From a virus, in IMG/VR virus record IMGVR_UViG_3300028925_005018, positions 1 to 29,317 of that record: 29,317 nucleotides of DNA. One strand, 5' to 3'. The position numbers were made by a program, and so were the translations under genes. Under the pieces are notes generated by a model that saw only the letters and a program-made list of their open reading frames with translations, did not search any database and was not told where the DNA came from. Position 1 is the first letter of the stretch; every line of letters begins with the position of its first letter. Shown piece by piece: positions 2,532-20,910 of this stretch.

Positions 2532-2572
2532 ATAAGAAGAGGAGCGTAAGCGGAAATAAACCTACGCCCCTC
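2527..2572 (-). terminator. Intrinsic terminator of the leftward operon
   Basis: Read on the minus strand, GAGGGGCGTA (2572-2563) pairs with TACGCTCCTC (2548-2539) over ten positions including one G-U wobble. A U-rich run (TTCTTATTTAT) follows. On the plus strand the wobble becomes an A-C mismatch and no T-run follows, so the signal is directional. It sits in the 67-base gap between two convergent genes, directly after the bS21-like gene. Confidence 0.7.
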
Positions 2573-2598
2573 TAGCTACGCACACAGTAGATGAACTA

Positions 2599-2733
2599 CT
2601 AAATTTTTCTCTCTCTTATTGCTTTTTTCTCTCTCTCCCTCCTGAGTTGGGAGGGCTTAGTGTAAAATCTTCGCTCTTCCAGCTCTATTAGGAGTCCAGA
2701 TTCTCTCACTTTCTTTTTAAATTCTGACAACAT
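2599..2733 (-). CDS. rpsU: Phage-encoded ribosomal protein bS21 homologue
   Basis: A protein of 44 residues starting at ATG 2733. It reads FKKKVRESGLL, then IELEERRFYTKPS, then QLRREREKKAIRERK. This is the conserved core of bS21: a first basic helix, an E-x-R-R-x-(F/Y)-Y-x-K-P turn and a basic C-terminal helix full of Arg/Lys. It is shorter than bacterial bS21 (about 58-71 residues), because the first strand is missing. An AGG lies about five bases before the ATG. It is the last gene of the leftward cluster, 13 bases after the HExxH gene and before a terminator. bS21 is the small-subunit protein next to the anti-Shine-Dalgarno region, and phage copies are known from aquatic phages including a pelagiphage. 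It may tune initiation on phage mRNAs in the host. Confidence 0.85.
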   Translation of the reverse strand: MLSEFKKKVRESGLLIELEERRFYTKPSQLRREREKKAIRERKI

Positions 2734-2746
2734 CTTACCTATCTCT

Positions 2747-3127
2747 TTATTTTTTGTCTTCTTTACTAATATCATTTAATCTCCAAGTTTTTTCATATTC
2801 TTTTATAGCCCAATTCTCTGCTTTAAGTTCCCATTTATTATCTTTATAATAATCTCTATTACAATAGACAGCTACGGTTCCAGCCTGAGCATACTTCTTA
2901 ATAAACTTTCTAATGCCAAGTCTTCGGGCATCAATAGCGTGTTTACCTTCATGCAGTACAGTCATTACAAAGTCTTTAGGGTCTGGGTTTTCTTCTTTTA
3001 TGTCTCTAAGTATAATTTTATCTTCTTCTGCTAAGTACATACCCTTAACATCTAATGTCTTAGACATTACTATTGTTGGATGAATATTGTACTTACCTAG
3101 AATTGACTTAGCTATTACGTTACGCAA
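2747..3127 (-). CDS. Putative small zinc metallopeptidase (HExxH)
   Basis: A protein of 126 residues beginning with TTG at 3127. GGAG lies seven bases before it, inside the 3' end of the helicase gene, and the two overlap by eight bases. Residues 59-63 are H-E-G-K-H in VMTVLHEGKHAIDARRLG, a typical zinc-binding helix. The family looks like a minimal SprT/WLM or ImmA-like peptidase core: a short beta region, an active helix, then an acidic C-terminal helix (ENWAIKEYEKTW) that may give the third ligand. The substrate is unknown. It lies between the helicase and the bS21-like gene at the distal end of the early cluster. Activity is inferred from the motif only. Confidence 0.7.
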   Translation of the reverse strand: MRNVIAKSILGKYNIHPTIVMSKTLDVKGMYLAEEDKIILRDIKEENPDPKDFVMTVLHEGKHAIDARRLGIRKFIKKYAQAGTVAVYCNRDYYKDNKWELKAENWAIKEYEKTWRLNDISKEDKK

Positions 3128-4475
3128 TTACAATCTCCGATTCTTTAGTTAATAATTTTTTATTTCTTTCATGTTCAGTAGCTTCTAGTATATCATCAAA
3201 TAGTTTACAACTGTCTCCAGAGTAACCCATCTCTACTGATCCTGGTGTTCCATATCTATTCTTAGATACTATAAGCATCATCTCGTTTGGCATCCATATC
3301 CTACCATTGGAATCTTCTGCACCAAATCTAGACACATAAGGATAGTGAGTAAATACTACCATCTCTGCATCTTGCTCTAGTGAACCAGACTCTGCCAAGT
3401 CAGACAACCTAGGTGTAGAGTCGATTCTATGTTCTATATTTCTATTCAGCTGCGACACTAGTATGATACACATATCATGTCCCTTAGCTAACCATTTATA
3501 TCGCATAGTTGTTTCTCTAATCTTATGTCTTAGGTCTCTATTGTCATTAGATGGAAACTCTATTAAACCTATGTGGTCATCAATAACAACATCTGGTTTT
3601 ATTCTTTTTATCTCATTGAACGTCTCATGTATATCTCTAATAGAATCATACATAAATAAATTCTCTTTATAATTCTCTCTAATATAATCCATTGCCCTCT
3701 CTACCTCTGGCTTTATAGATTTAGTTCCATGTCTAATACCTCTATACGATAGAGTATCTGACTCCATAGCTATAAACTTTTTCATCATCTCTACGTTTGG
3801 CATCTCACGATTGATCATCATTACTTTCTTACCAGACAACACTAACTGTCTAGCCATATTAGCTACTACAGTAGTCTTTCCATTCGCTGGTCTACCAGCT
3901 ACAATAGTTATCTCACCTCTAGTCATACCATGTACTACAGAATCTAACTTACCTAACCCTGTCTTTATAATTCCTTTACTATTAAATATAGAATCGCTTG
4001 TCTCTTCGAGAGTATTATCTATATTGAAGTCATTCTTAGAAGGTCTTAGGTTTATAATGTTACTAGAATCTGTATTCACCTGGTTAATAAGTGAATCCAT
4101 ATCCACTGAATTATCTTCTGCGTTTTTTATTATAGTATGTGAATGCTCTACCATCTTTCTTCTTAACCAATGCTCATGCATTAGCCTAGCATAGTACTCT
4201 GCTCTAGCCGTGCTAGCCTCTTTAGTACATATAGTAGTTATATCATAAGTAACTTGTCTGTTCTGGTAGTTCTTAGAAGGGAAGTTATGAGATACAGTTA
4301 ACATATCTATTTCATCTCCCTTGTCTTCTAACCTTTTTACAGTCTTCCATATATCTCTATTAAACTCATTGTAAAAAACATCGTCAGTTTCTATCCATCT
4401 CTTTACAATATCAATATTACTTGGCTTATTTATAACTGAGAATAATACAGCCTCTTCTATTTCTACGTTGTGCAT
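3120..4475 (-). CDS. dnaB: Replicative DNA helicase, DnaB-like
   Basis: A protein of 451 residues. The N-terminal helical domain (residues 1-~110, EEAVLFSVINKP start) matches the DnaB N domain. The RecA-like motor follows: Walker A GRPANGKTT at 194-202, acidic NREMP near 222-226, Walker B VVIDD at 296-300, and the sensor/H4 region VSQLNRN at 340-346 with LSDLAESGSLEQDA afterwards. The usual C-terminal SKNRYG motif is also present. It should unwind DNA at the phage fork as a ring hexamer. The start ATG has GAGGAAAT before it. Directly upstream in the operon lies a zinc-finger protein that may load it. No primase is seen in the window, so the host primase or an unseen gene is needed. Confidence 0.93.
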   Translation of the reverse strand: MHNVEIEEAVLFSVINKPSNIDIVKRWIETDDVFYNEFNRDIWKTVKRLEDKGDEIDMLTVSHNFPSKNYQNRQVTYDITTICTKEASTARAEYYARLMHEHWLRRKMVEHSHTIIKNAEDNSVDMDSLINQVNTDSSNIINLRPSKNDFNIDNTLEETSDSIFNSKGIIKTGLGKLDSVVHGMTRGEITIVAGRPANGKTTVVANMARQLVLSGKKVMMINREMPNVEMMKKFIAMESDTLSYRGIRHGTKSIKPEVERAMDYIRENYKENLFMYDSIRDIHETFNEIKRIKPDVVIDDHIGLIEFPSNDNRDLRHKIRETTMRYKWLAKGHDMCIILVSQLNRNIEHRIDSTPRLSDLAESGSLEQDAEMVVFTHYPYVSRFGAEDSNGRIWMPNEMMLIVSKNRYGTPGSVEMGYSGDSCKLFDDILEATEHERNKKLLTKESEIVIA

Positions 4476-6464: not shown

Positions 6465-7561
6465 AAATAAATGCTCCTTATTACTTCAGAAACTACATTA
6501 GTTGTTACTGCATTACCAAGACATTTATACCTTTGAGTATCAGATAATCCCTCAGTCCATCCGTCTGGAAACCCTTGTAATCTCTCGCATTCTACAGGAG
6601 TTAGTCTTCTTATATTAGACCCTTGCAATGTGTGTTGTTGCATACCAGTATCTAGTGTCTGAGCTACTGCCCTACCTACTCTACCTCGCCTGGTTTTAGA
6701 ACTAGGAACAGATAGATTAATACTATCTCCCTCTTGAGCTATAGCATAGCCTGTCTTGGTAGCTTCTTTAACTTTAACTTTAAGTAAATCCATATCACTA
6801 TGATTTCCTCCGCTATGACCTCCACCACATAAAGTTGATGCTTGCTTTTGATTTCTTTTTTCTTTTCCATCTTTAGATATTATTTTATATAAACCTGTTT
6901 TTGCTCCCACTCCTCCACCTACAGCTTTTATCGTAGTTGATAAACCATCTTGATCATAGACACGATATCCCATAGATTTATTCTTAGTTAACTCTTTTAG
7001 TCTACTTTTTTCACTATCTTCTTCAGAGATTTTTCCGAGAGGAAATATTTTTTCTCTACTTCCTCCTCTAAGATGTCCGACAAGATAGATTCTTTCCCTA
7101 TTTTGAGGGACTCCGAAGTTCTTACTATTAAGTAGCTCCCATTGCACCATATACCCAACGTCGGAGAGAACCCTAAGGATTGTCTGGAAAGTCCTTCCAG
7201 AGTCATGAGAAAATAAACCTCGTACATTTTCGAGTATAAAATGTCTGGGTTTTTTGTGGCTGAGAATCCGTGCGATATCAAAAAATAGAGTACCTCTCGT
7301 CTCTCTAAATCCGAGTCTTTTTCCAGCAATGCTGAAAGCTTGACAAGGAAATCCTCCAACGAGGAGGTCGAAGTCGGGAAGTTCTCTCTCATTAATGTTT
7401 GTTGCGTCTCCATAGTTATTAACACCTTTAAAATTCCTTTCATATATTTGTGTTGCGTACTTATCTATTTCCGAATAGCCTACAAATTCAGCATTCGGAA
7501 TAGTATTTTTTATTCCTAGCTCAAATCCTCCTATACCAGAGAACATTGAGAATACCTTCAT
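6461..7561 (-). CDS. dcm: DNA (cytosine-5-)-methyltransferase
   Basis: A protein of 366 residues carrying the ordered C5-methyltransferase motifs. Motif I is FSGIGGFELG (7-16, AdoMet binding). Motif IV is GGFPCQAFS (69-77), with catalytic Cys73. Motif VI is ENVRG (111-115) and motif VIII is QNRERIY (153-159). A variable target-recognition region follows (about 190-310), then RRLTPVECERLQGFPDGW and motif X GNAVTTNV. It transfers methyl from AdoMet to carbon 5 of cytosine in double-stranded DNA. No restriction endonuclease lies beside it, so it is an orphan enzyme that probably protects phage DNA from host restriction. GGAG lies seven bases before ATG. The target site cannot be read from the sequence. 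Confidence 0.95.
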   Translation of the reverse strand: MKVFSMFSGIGGFELGIKNTIPNAEFVGYSEIDKYATQIYERNFKGVNNYGDATNINERELPDFDLLVGGFPCQAFSIAGKRLGFRETRGTLFFDIARILSHKKPRHFILENVRGLFSHDSGRTFQTILRVLSDVGYMVQWELLNSKNFGVPQNRERIYLVGHLRGGSREKIFPLGKISEEDSEKSRLKELTKNKSMGYRVYDQDGLSTTIKAVGGGVGAKTGLYKIISKDGKEKRNQKQASTLCGGGHSGGNHSDMDLLKVKVKEATKTGYAIAQEGDSINLSVPSSKTRRGRVGRAVAQTLDTGMQQHTLQGSNIRRLTPVECERLQGFPDGWTEGLSDTQRYKCLGNAVTTNVVSEVIRSIYL

Positions 7562-11513: not shown

Positions 11514-12767
11514 CTATACGAGATACTCTAGTACTCTATAGTCCTCAGCTTTCTCTAAGTTATAGAACTTATTCATTCTCTTGTCTACATAGTCCTTAAC
11601 ATCTTTATCTAATCTTAAGAACTTAAAGAACTCATTGTAAGTAAGGTCTCTCTCTGTGATTGTACTAATTATTGCACTACTTTCATCAGTAGATTGATAA
11701 CATATCCTTATCCCTGTATCTACTATAGCTGTACATATCTTAATCCAATTTAGTATCTTATCTTGATTGATAGTTCCAGAGTGATATCTAAACTCTACAG
11801 AGCCATTGATTATTCTAGAATGCATATTCATACCACAATATCTAGAATCATTGTATTTCTCCATAGATGGACTTACATCCCAAGAGTTGTACCAAGCTTC
11901 TATAAAATCATCATTAGATTCTATTGCTAATATATCTGGTCTAGACATAGGTATTCTTCTACACCATCTACCATTATCTCTAGAAGGTGGTAACATCTTA
12001 TAGATAACATCTTGAACAGACTTACCTAGTAATAGAATGTGCTTAAGTTGCCTCCAATCACAATCTCTAGCATCTATATGTACGTGCAACCCACAACTTC
12101 TATTAATAGAAAAACTATTATCAAGATAGCTAGTTAGATTACTTACCTTATTATAAAGGTCATCTCCATTGCTAGGTGTCCTCATTACCCACTCTACACC
12201 ACTACCATTATTCCCTCTCTCTATACTACCATCGTGAACTGGTCTAAACTCATTTGGGTGATTAGACCCATCTTCTGTCTCCCAAAAGTCCCAGTTATTT
12301 GTAATTGTCTCTACTTCTAAACCTACTAACCTCATAGATTCGATAATATTATTAGACTTAGAATCTTCTCCCATATTTCTATTAGAGTAACTATCTAAGT
12401 CTACATCATTATCAGGGAAACAATTCTCACAATAGTAGTTATCATCATTATCGTTAAGCCTTATATCCTCTCTATTAACTTCGTCATCACATCCATCGCA
12501 CGATACGTATGTTTCGTAGTAACAATCTTCACAGTAATTACATCCGTTACTATCCAAGCGATGATACTCTGAATCAAACCACATAGTATGACCACAATCC
12601 TCGCAATGAACTATAGTCTCATAGCATTCGCTACATAGAATATCATTCGTATCTCCCTCTACTTCTATATCCGTAAAATAGTTATTATCAGCTACATCTT
12701 TACTACATACAGAACATTCTAATAACTCTACTTCTTCTACGGGTTTACTTTTGTCTTTTGTATCCAT
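11514..12767 (-). CDS. Zinc-finger amidoligase (Amidoligase_2 / glutamine-synthetase-like COOH-NH2 ligase)
   Basis: A protein of 417 residues. Residues 1-120 hold repeated CxxC knuckles (C18/21, C45/48, C55/58, C79/82, C90/93, C113/116), forming about three zinc-binding units. The catalytic domain follows: G-L-E-V-E-T (149-154), V-H-D-G-S (177-181), E192 in V-E-W-V-M-R-T-P, C-G-L-H-V-H-I-D (225-232) and S-V-E-F-R-Y-H (323-329). These match the metal, ATP and substrate residues of the Amidoligase_2 family, which joins a carboxylate to an amine using ATP. AGGAGG precedes ATG 12767. It is the third gene of an operon with a class II glutamine amidotransferase, the association reported for this family. 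The substrate is unknown: a peptide, cell-wall or protein side chain. Confidence 0.88.
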   Translation of the reverse strand: MDTKDKSKPVEEVELLECSVCSKDVADNNYFTDIEVEGDTNDILCSECYETIVHCEDCGHTMWFDSEYHRLDSNGCNYCEDCYYETYVSCDGCDDEVNREDIRLNDNDDNYYCENCFPDNDVDLDSYSNRNMGEDSKSNNIIESMRLVGLEVETITNNWDFWETEDGSNHPNEFRPVHDGSIERGNNGSGVEWVMRTPSNGDDLYNKVSNLTSYLDNSFSINRSCGLHVHIDARDCDWRQLKHILLLGKSVQDVIYKMLPPSRDNGRWCRRIPMSRPDILAIESNDDFIEAWYNSWDVSPSMEKYNDSRYCGMNMHSRIINGSVEFRYHSGTINQDKILNWIKICTAIVDTGIRICYQSTDESSAIISTITERDLTYNEFFKFLRLDKDVKDYVDKRMNKFYNLEKAEDYRVLEYLV

Positions 12768-12775
12768 ATATCCTC

Positions 12776-13096
12776 CTAAGCTATTGCGTAGTTAGCAGTT
12801 ATCATATAGAAAGCCATATAGTTTATCTCTCTAAGCCAACCTATTCTTTTAAGAGTTTTATATATACTCTCTGGCTCTATAGAATCTACTATTATACCTT
12901 CCTGTTCTTCTATCTGTCTAGCTATATAACTAAGGTAAGATTCAAATGAATCTGTATCTACAAAAGGATTATTCTTAGCTTTCTTATAGAGCTTCTTCAT
13001 TACATATAACTTTGACTTTATACGTATTGGATTATCTATACCAATTACTATAGCTGATCGCTTCTTCTTAGATGAAACAAGTTTGTCTATCATCAT
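12776..13096 (-). CDS. Conserved-context hypothetical protein between amidotransferase and amidoligase
   Basis: A protein of 106 residues beginning MMIDKLVSSKKKRSAIVIGI. Its start overlaps the amidotransferase 3' end by 29 bases and its stop lies nine bases from the amidoligase ATG, so the three are one transcription unit. It is basic at the N-terminus and mainly helical (KLYVMKKLYKKAKNN; SYLSYIARQIEEQEG), with a hydrophobic end (NYMAFYMITANYAIA). No motif is recognised. Its fixed place between the two enzymes makes it a candidate partner, carrier or substrate. Confidence 0.7.
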   Translation of the reverse strand: MMIDKLVSSKKKRSAIVIGIDNPIRIKSKLYVMKKLYKKAKNNPFVDTDSFESYLSYIARQIEEQEGIIVDSIEPESIYKTLKRIGWLREINYMAFYMITANYAIA

Positions 13097-14210
13097 TCGT
13101 ATCTCCTTTCTTTTTATTCTTAGATATAGATGTGGTAGCTAAGTCGTAGTCATAGCAAGACTTACATATATAGTACCCACTAGTCTTGATAGCGTCATCA
13201 GCCCAGTCTCCACAATAAGAACACTCTATACCATCTTCCCATTGTTTTTTATTTATGTTACTCTTTACTATGTATTCACAGTCAAAACATACATACTGTA
13301 GATTGTCTGCATCGTAGACTAAATCGTACCACTCTGTAGGCTTGCAGCAAACATCGCAGTCTCTACTCTTAGTATCTATATCAGAATTAACACCGAAGCT
13401 CTGGTCGAAACTAAACTCTCCTCTACCAAATCCGTAGTGATTATAGCTTCTCTCCATTACATAGTTAGATGCTATTGTATTAGTTTCATATGACTTCTTA
13501 TCAAAGTTCATCTTTCCATTAAACTTACTAGTATCTATAGTATATAGAGTATCATTAGATACCTCGTATATTTTCATAGATATTTTTGTACCTTTAATAG
13601 ATTCCTCTAAGATGTCTTTTTGAGAGGCATAGAGTAAGACTCTAGCTTCTTTCCAATATCCGAAATAACAAGGTCTACCAGATTCCTTTAGTAGATGTAA
13701 TATATCTTTATTACTTCTATTCCAGGCTAATGCGTAGTCTCCGTATATTTCATCTAGACATTCTTGAAGGTTATTATTGGAATTAAATAGAGCGAATATA
13801 GCTTGAGAGTCTACCTTGTAAACTTCTTTCTTATTTACAGAGATATCCTCGTGGTTATGAATTACTCCATTATGAGTTCCAATTACAGATCCGATGTGGA
13901 AAGGGTGAGCGTTTTCTAGAGATATATTTCCGTGTGTCTTATACCTTGTATGTCCTAAGACTACAGATGTCTCTGGAGTAAGCTCTGCTATGATTTTATT
14001 CCAATCTCTATGCTTGACAAGATTACTTGACTTTTTTAGAGATTTAAATATCATAGGGTTCTTACCACTACTAATAAAAGCAAGTCCTGTAGAGTGTTCA
14101 CCTCTAACTACAGATAATGCAGTTAGCTTGGTTAATACTCTCTTTAATTGCTTAGATTGGTAATCTGTCTGTGCGTGTTTCTGTTTGGCTATGCCAAATA
14201 TTCCACACAT
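13068..14210 (-). CDS. Class II glutamine amidotransferase with C-terminal zinc ribbons
   Basis: A protein of 380 residues. It begins M-C-G-I-F-G-I-A, with Cys2 as the N-terminal nucleophile. The glutaminase signatures follow: G-H-T-R-Y (86-90, Arg89), A-H-P-F-H near 101-105, T-H-N-G-V-I-H-N (112-119) and Y-G-D-Y-A-L-A-W (156-163). It hydrolyses glutamine to glutamate and ammonia. The sugar isomerase, synthetase or phosphoribosyl domains that usually follow are absent. Instead residues ~285-352 carry two four-cysteine ribbons (C285/288, C308/311; C330/333, C349/352), echoing the zinc knuckles of the amidoligase two genes downstream. It probably feeds ammonia to, or acts as transferase with, that ligase. 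Confidence 0.9.
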   Translation of the reverse strand: MCGIFGIAKQKHAQTDYQSKQLKRVLTKLTALSVVRGEHSTGLAFISSGKNPMIFKSLKKSSNLVKHRDWNKIIAELTPETSVVLGHTRYKTHGNISLENAHPFHIGSVIGTHNGVIHNHEDISVNKKEVYKVDSQAIFALFNSNNNLQECLDEIYGDYALAWNRSNKDILHLLKESGRPCYFGYWKEARVLLYASQKDILEESIKGTKISMKIYEVSNDTLYTIDTSKFNGKMNFDKKSYETNTIASNYVMERSYNHYGFGRGEFSFDQSFGVNSDIDTKSRDCDVCCKPTEWYDLVYDADNLQYVCFDCEYIVKSNINKKQWEDGIECSYCGDWADDAIKTSGYYICKSCYDYDLATTSISKNKKKGDTNDDRQTCFI

Positions 14211-20351: not shown

Positions 20352-20563
20352 TGAAAAAAGTTAATTTTAATTTAGAAATAGAAGTTCACAAGGATTTAAA
20401 AGATGAAATCTTAAAAGACTATGTCTCTAGTTATCTTATAAATCAAGAAACATTTGATGATTTTAGATTAAACATTATTGGAGGAAAAAACTATCCTGAA
20501 AATTTTGAGATAGGTTCTATCAAGTTTGATTTAAAAAAGAAAAAAGCAAAAGCTAAAAAATGA
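20351..20563 (+). CDS. Hypothetical protein, 70 residues
   Basis: A protein of 70 residues with GGAG six bases before its TAATG-coupled start. It alternates strands and helices (KVNFNLEIEVHKDLKDEILKD; DDFRLNIIGG; FEIGSIKFDL) and ends in a poly-basic tail (KKKKAKAKK). Its last codon overlaps the next ATG. Function unknown. Confidence 0.7.
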   Translation: MKKVNFNLEIEVHKDLKDEILKDYVSSYLINQETFDDFRLNIIGGKNYPENFEIGSIKFDLKKKKAKAKK

Positions 20564-20910
20564 AGTTAGCTGTATATGGAACATTGAGAAGTGGGAATGA
20601 AAATACAGGTATATTAGAAAACTCTTCATTGGTTTACCCAGGGCATCATACTTTTCCAGCAGTGATTCAGAATAATAATGGCTCTGGAACTGTAGTAGAG
20701 GTGCATACTGTAGATAAAGAAGACTTAGCTAGGTATGATATCTATGAGGGTGTTGATTCTGGTCTTTATAGGCGAGTAAAGGCGGATATTAAAATGGATA
20801 GTGGAGAAACAGAGAATGTTTGGGTGTATGTAGCTGGAGACGAATTGATGCAAAGAAGCAATTCTTTTAAAGTAATTCAAAGTGGAGATTGGTACAATAG
20901 AAAATTTTAA
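20560..20910 (+). CDS. Gamma-glutamylcyclotransferase-like protein (GGCT/AIG2 fold)
   Basis: A protein of 116 residues. It opens with M-K-L-A-V-Y-G-T-L-R-S-G, the family's substrate-binding YGTLR loop. It has L-A-R-Y-D-I-Y-E-G at ~57-65 holding the catalytic glutamate, followed by L-Y-R-R at ~70-73. These are the core signatures of GGCT/GGACT/AIG2 enzymes, which cyclise gamma-glutamyl groups to 5-oxoproline and release the amine or amino acid. It sits between small unknown genes and terL. Phage copies are known, but their substrates are not. Because an amidoligase and a glutaminase are encoded on the other strand, a link through gamma-glutamyl amides is attractive but inferred. Confidence 0.85.
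   Translation: MKLAVYGTLRSGNENTGILENSSLVYPGHHTFPAVIQNNNGSGTVVEVHTVDKEDLARYDIYEGVDSGLYRRVKADIKMDSGETENVWVYVAGDELMQRSNSFKVIQSGDWYNRKF

Follow-up and report, generated by a model that had tools for sequence, protein, structure and literature searches.

The window, that is, the whole 29,317-nucleotide stretch of viral DNA analyzed here, comes from a non-jumbo tailed phage and is predicted from its sequence to encode a complete homologue of the ribosomal protein bS21, on the minus strand at positions 2599–2775. Phage bS21 itself is already known; what is new is the small, non-jumbo, Shine-Dalgarno (SD)-using clade in which this one occurs, its early-operon setting, and a candidate cis element embedded in its coding sequence.

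Gene model and family assignment

A bS21 frame of 44 codons at 2599–2733 (minus strand), said to lack the first strand of the protein, had been described in the first-pass annotation. This frame is present and matches Ribosomal_S21, but represents only the 3' portion of a longer gene. Upstream of 2733 the frame stays open as far as an in-frame ATG at 2775, giving a protein of 58 residues that begins MILVKKTKNKEIGKMLSEFKKK (full sequence: MILVKKTKNKEIGKMLSEFKKKVRESGLLIELEERRFYTKPSQLRREREKKAIRERKI). The features of the locus are the following:

2599–2775, minus strand: phage bS21 gene, 58 codons, with its ATG at 2775
2781–2784, minus strand: Shine-Dalgarno sequence GGAG, 5 nt before ATG 2775
2747–2775, minus strand: overlap of 29 nt between the bS21 start and the upstream HExxH gene
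2747–3127, minus strand: upstream gene with a TTG start and an HEGKH motif, a putative zincin-like metallopeptidase with no Pfam match above the cut-off
3120–4475, minus strand: DnaB-like replicative helicase (PF03796, 164 bits), the marker used for the clade tree
2538–2573, minus strand: terminator-like hairpin of 14 pairs with a TCTTATTTAT tail (z −4.3), which ends the replication operon

No site comparable to this GGAG was found for ATG 2733. In IMG/VR, 19 loci with bS21 relatives were detected. All 18 that belong to the same clade (one of them, L006, is truncated at the 3' end) start at the codon matching ATG 2775, as ATG in 17 cases and GTG in one, and their N-terminal residues are conserved; the nineteenth match, L020, is more distant, and its alignment starts only at residue 9. 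With other known overlaps left out, the end of the upstream gene showed the lowest synonymous variation among the neighboring genes tested, as expected if the N terminus of bS21 is translated within the overlap, in which two coding frames would be superimposed. Because ATG 2775 has its own GGAG and both the start and the N terminus are conserved, the missing strand is best explained as a start-site error, and the gene is predicted to be complete at 58 rather than 44 residues.

The family identity proposed at first was borne out by profile searches. Against PF01165 (Ribosomal_S21, cut-off 27), the 58-residue form scored 34.5 bits and the 44-residue form 32.9 bits (E 5e-8). With the longer form, the start of the match moved from profile position 14 to 6, so that the alignment spans positions 6–54 of 55. 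The protein also exceeded the cut-off of the NCBIfam model TIGR00030 (31.6 bits vs. 28.95), and it matched phrog_21469 in PHROGs and bS21 chains of solved ribosome structures (best E 2e-4). Its length, which includes an N-terminal segment before helix 1, falls within the bS21 range of about 57–71 residues, and the turn EERRFYTKP is present. The E. coli bS21 is colinear with it from residue 1, with N9, L16, F19, and K20 at the same places. Across 11 bS21 sequences, 17 residues were invariant and 19 nearly invariant, a purifying pattern. An AF2 model of moderate confidence (mean pLDDT 77.6, pTM 0.37) placed helices at 10–26, 28–37, and 41–57, in agreement with the succession of helix, RRFYTKP turn, and basic helix read from the sequence. 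A Foldseek search with this short helical model returned no PDB match.

Operon setting and genome

As the first-pass annotation had proposed, the gene stands at the end of the early operon: the minus-strand replication operon consists, in order, of an exonuclease, a Sak annealing protein, a cytosine methyltransferase, DnaB, the small HExxH protein, and finally bS21, after which comes the terminator-like hairpin. In all mapped contigs of the clade, bS21 is on the same strand as the HExxH and DnaB genes and directly 3' of them, and the order DnaB–HExxH–bS21, with a gene converging on it, is constant. The HExxH gene, which overlaps bS21, occurs only in the bS21 clade and its bS21-less sister; its zincin-like product has a conserved HE-x-K-H and a downstream Glu. 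The idea of a protease directed against host bS21 (PMC9976891) makes this protein a candidate only, and the gene is retained in the bS21-less sisters.

One contig of 80,282 bases (G006, loci L016 and L022) contains two non-identical phages of the clade, arranged head to tail, and both of them have a bS21 gene. The contig is possibly a chimera, perhaps of assembly, or a concatemer. From the spacing of the equivalent capsid genes in this contig, we infer a genome of about 44 kb. A second bS21-positive contig of the clade has 48 kb.

Gain and loss of the phage gene

Relatives were collected by DnaB, irrespective of bS21. Where DnaB was at least 58% identical, every locus that was long enough carried bS21, except four (L035, L036, L037, and L047), whose DnaB is about 78% identical. 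In the group with DnaB at ~50% identity, bS21 was present in none, and whole-contig searches agreed for the contigs tested. On the DnaB tree, the presence of bS21 needs two changes, which would most simply be a single gain and a single loss, so that the gene is stably inherited in the clade. The bS21-less sisters have, 3' of the HExxH gene, a recognizable remnant of the bS21 core, devoid of a start and containing stops.

Inner-clade and outer-clade phage bS21s grouped together, apart from bacterial bS21 (94/94, from few alignment columns), with L020 placed outside the phage group. Among other phage records, convincing bS21 was found in large genomes, namely, HTVC008M (147 kb), a PA5oct-like phage (about 287 kb), and SCTP-2 (440 kb). 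In small Klebsiella prophage records, bS21 lies near the end of the record and may be the host rpsU. A search of 84,980 genomes of bacteria and archaea with the FYTKPSQ core yielded no confirmed relative of bS21. Neither cellular bS21s nor related phages pointed to a host: among the matches listed, the nearest cellular bS21s reached no more than about 53%, over short segments, and came from mixed phyla, and the nearest phage relatives of the terminase, capsid, portal, and helicase were all distant.

The clade offers a natural experiment on whether phage bS21 redirects ribosomes, in which closely related non-jumbo phages with bS21 can be compared with a sister subclade that lost it.

Start codons and Shine-Dalgarno use

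The first-pass annotation had also linked bS21 to unusual start codons. The portal gene (P22-like, PF16510; 22532–24547, plus strand) has an ATT start after AAGGAG; 52 further residues are conserved upstream of ATG 22688, and the clade relatives start at AGGAGTnnnnATT AAC TAC GTA GAA. The AUU start is therefore real, is conserved in the clade, and carries an SD site. The proposed dependence on bS21 was rejected, since the sisters without bS21 share this AUU start, and AUU, AUC, AUA, or AUG occurs at the position in more distant relatives that also have no bS21. Most genes, moreover, have SD sites: the motif precedes 63% of 41 gene starts, compared with 13% of 981 control ATGs. The clade in this way separates the two ideas, as AUU starts persist without bS21. 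As a separate observation, predicted anti-SD pairing was weaker in the bS21-less sisters than in the phages with bS21 (−4.0 vs. −6.0 kcal/mol; 10 orthologous genes, p 0.027). This difference was given no weight, as it comes from few genes and a single evolutionary event.

A candidate cis element inside the coding sequence

Within the bS21 gene, three features were recognized:

2626–2685, minus strand: synonymously frozen block, codons 31–50
2644–2685, minus strand: hairpin H1, with codons 31–35 and 40–44 as its arms
2632–2643, minus strand: conserved SD-like purine stretch AGGAGGGAGAGA after H1, able to pair alternatively with the CCCTCC in the 3' arm of H1

In 15 distinct genes, codons 31–50 read GAG YTG GAA GAG CGW ... 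ACT AAR CCC TCC CAR CTY AGG AGG GAG AGA GAG AAA. Twelve of the 18 codons invariant in amino acid were also invariant as codons, as opposed to 45 of 474 in seven neighboring genes (Fisher p 2e-8) and two of 10 elsewhere in bS21 (p 0.046), p-values that are indicative only, because the phages compared are related and not independent samples. The longest invariant run was 20 nt in the block, compared with 8, and, gene overlaps apart, no other 20-codon stretch in the genes tested varied as little as the block (0.133 vs. a median of 0.41).

In H1, four of the 13 pairs have changed on both sides when phages with bS21 and the bS21-less sisters are taken together. Its covariation score was equaled by one of 500 shuffles and dropped when the pairing was slid, a test that relatedness inflates. 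Single-sequence folding energies were unremarkable (z about −1 to −2). The conserved AGGAGGGAGAGAG follows H1 within the frozen block, and the alternative pairing of CCCTCC with GGAGGG showed no covariation beyond its fixed bases. Both the hairpin and AGGAGGGAGAGAG are kept by the bS21-less sisters. In viral contigs the motif is confined to the bS21 locus; of the sequences searched with a covariance model, none had another copy, weak chance-level matches aside, and Rfam gave only a chance-level miRNA match far under its cut-off.

Several other readings were discarded. For dual coding as the cause of the frozen block, none of the frames has an alternative ORF that is conserved and has a start codon. 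For an attP or a prophage site in rpsU, no tyrosine integrase was found in 12 contigs, the same core was found in no bacterial genome, and there was no match in phages or plasmids. The intragenic AGGAGGG is followed by no conserved start codon, as a ribosome-binding site would be.

We tentatively propose, at odds a little short of even, that the gene carries a second message, a cis-acting structured element at about 2631–2685 that is selected independently of the protein: it would be maintained at synonymous sites where bS21 is present and, through compensatory changes, on its own where the gene has decayed. Located where the replication operon ends, it could be a regulatory element of RNA or DNA, and its SD/anti-SD-like arms might allow it to act on ribosomes. 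If confirmed, it would be a dual-use sequence within a host-takeover gene.

Proposed role on the ribosome

The protein bS21 is a loosely held, late-assembling component of the 30S subunit, located beside the anti-Shine-Dalgarno. By analogy, we consider it probable (roughly 0.6) that the phage bS21 replaces the host bS21 on the 30S subunit, favoring phage messages or keeping the subunit competent. It would be made in the early or middle phase and enter the host 30S subunit instead of the host protein; from the platform, it would shift initiation toward phage messages or, alternatively, keep the 30S subunit competent while host bS21 runs short. The published data on which the analogy draws are that bS21 is loosely bound and easily exchanged, with variants that alter which genes are expressed (PMC9578407), that ribosomes without bS21 have changed mRNA selectivity (PMC9976891), and that the bS21 of HTVC008M is incorporated into the E. 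coli 70S (PMC6375957). A general role in the selection of phage mRNA is, by the same analogy, plausible. Counting against this reading, the bS21-less sister subclade shows that the gene is dispensable.

E. coli ribosomes containing the HTVC008M bS21 were about 5% active in vitro (PMC6375957), and incorporation of a phage bS21 may, by analogy, inhibit. This low activity, together with a location among replication rather than structural genes, would suit a host shut-off subunit that poisons the host 30S and mainly lowers the translation of host mRNA. The assay, however, used the ribosome of a foreign host, and the clade's own genes with ordinary SD starts would suffer as well, so we regard shut-off as unlikely. 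Slightly less credible still is an extraribosomal RNA-binding protein that acts on phage RNA or on the hairpin of its own mRNA. The conserved hairpin with SD/anti-SD-like arms in its coding sequence would fit such a protein, and bS21 is reported to occur in the OLE RNP complex (PMC12054373). The core residues of bS21 are kept, however, and the hairpin survives in phages that have no bS21, which argues that it is not simply the binding site of the protein. That the frame is a short chance frame or a decaying gene without function is highly improbable, for although the gene is short and survives in one sister subclade only as a remnant, its scores exceed curated cut-offs, and this reading is contradicted by conservation, the gene being intact with its start and residues conserved in 18 clade relatives.

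The reading preferred here, in which the phage protein takes the place of its host counterpart on the 30S subunit, can be set beside known systems. The bS21 of HTVC008M (AGE60443; Mizuno et al. 2019, PMC6375957) is likewise virus-encoded, but its phage is a 147-kb Pelagibacter myovirus, and among cultivated genomes that study found bS21 only above 130 kb (PMC6375957), as opposed to the inferred size of about 44 kb here. With tblastn, the two proteins did not match each other at E 0.1.

In the bS21 phages of freshwater Bacteroidetes (Chen et al. 2022, PMC9723584), the gene is also conserved within a clade and absent outside it. Their genomes, however, have 293–331 kb, and their bS21, which is expressed late (PMC9723584), lies among terminase, portal, and capsid genes, beside structural genes on the opposite strand, whereas here it ends the replication operon on the strand of HExxH and DnaB. 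At position 54, numbered by a colinear match to chain 7jil, all 61 of the Bacteroidetes phage proteins have an aromatic residue; the protein described here has Arg54, and in its clade an aromatic residue (Phe54) occurs only in L017 and L018. Given no aromatic residue 54, no structural-gene neighbors, and a phage that uses SD sites, the anti-SD-masking role of the Bacteroidetes type is unlikely.

The bS21 homologues of Francisella (PMC9578407) are a parallel in that a variant alters expression and exchanges on assembled ribosomes; those are cellular paralogues, whereas this one is phage-encoded. In the autoregulation of Flavobacterium rpsU (PMC9976891), the bS21 mRNA also has a strong SD-type sequence, which there belongs to the start of the same gene and is recognized by ribosomes lacking bS21. 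The AGGAGGG described here instead follows a hairpin within the coding sequence and persists where the gene has been lost.

Other genes in the window

Part of the cytosine methyltransferase gene (7037–7411, minus strand) shows 78% DNA identity to a cytosine methyltransferase gene of Methanobacterium virus Drs3, an archaeal virus. Genes for an Amidoligase_2, a class II glutamine amidotransferase, and a gamma-glutamyl cyclotransferase, at 11514–14210 (minus strand) and 20560–20910 (plus strand), suggest a phage gamma-glutamyl modification pathway. Three consecutive plus-strand proteins at 151–2531 carry, at the N terminus or internally, a common peptide resembling SKSIDDIIKQSD. Other contigs, those of the bS21-less sisters (L035–L037 and L047), have a similar tag, which is perhaps a virion or assembly sorting signal.
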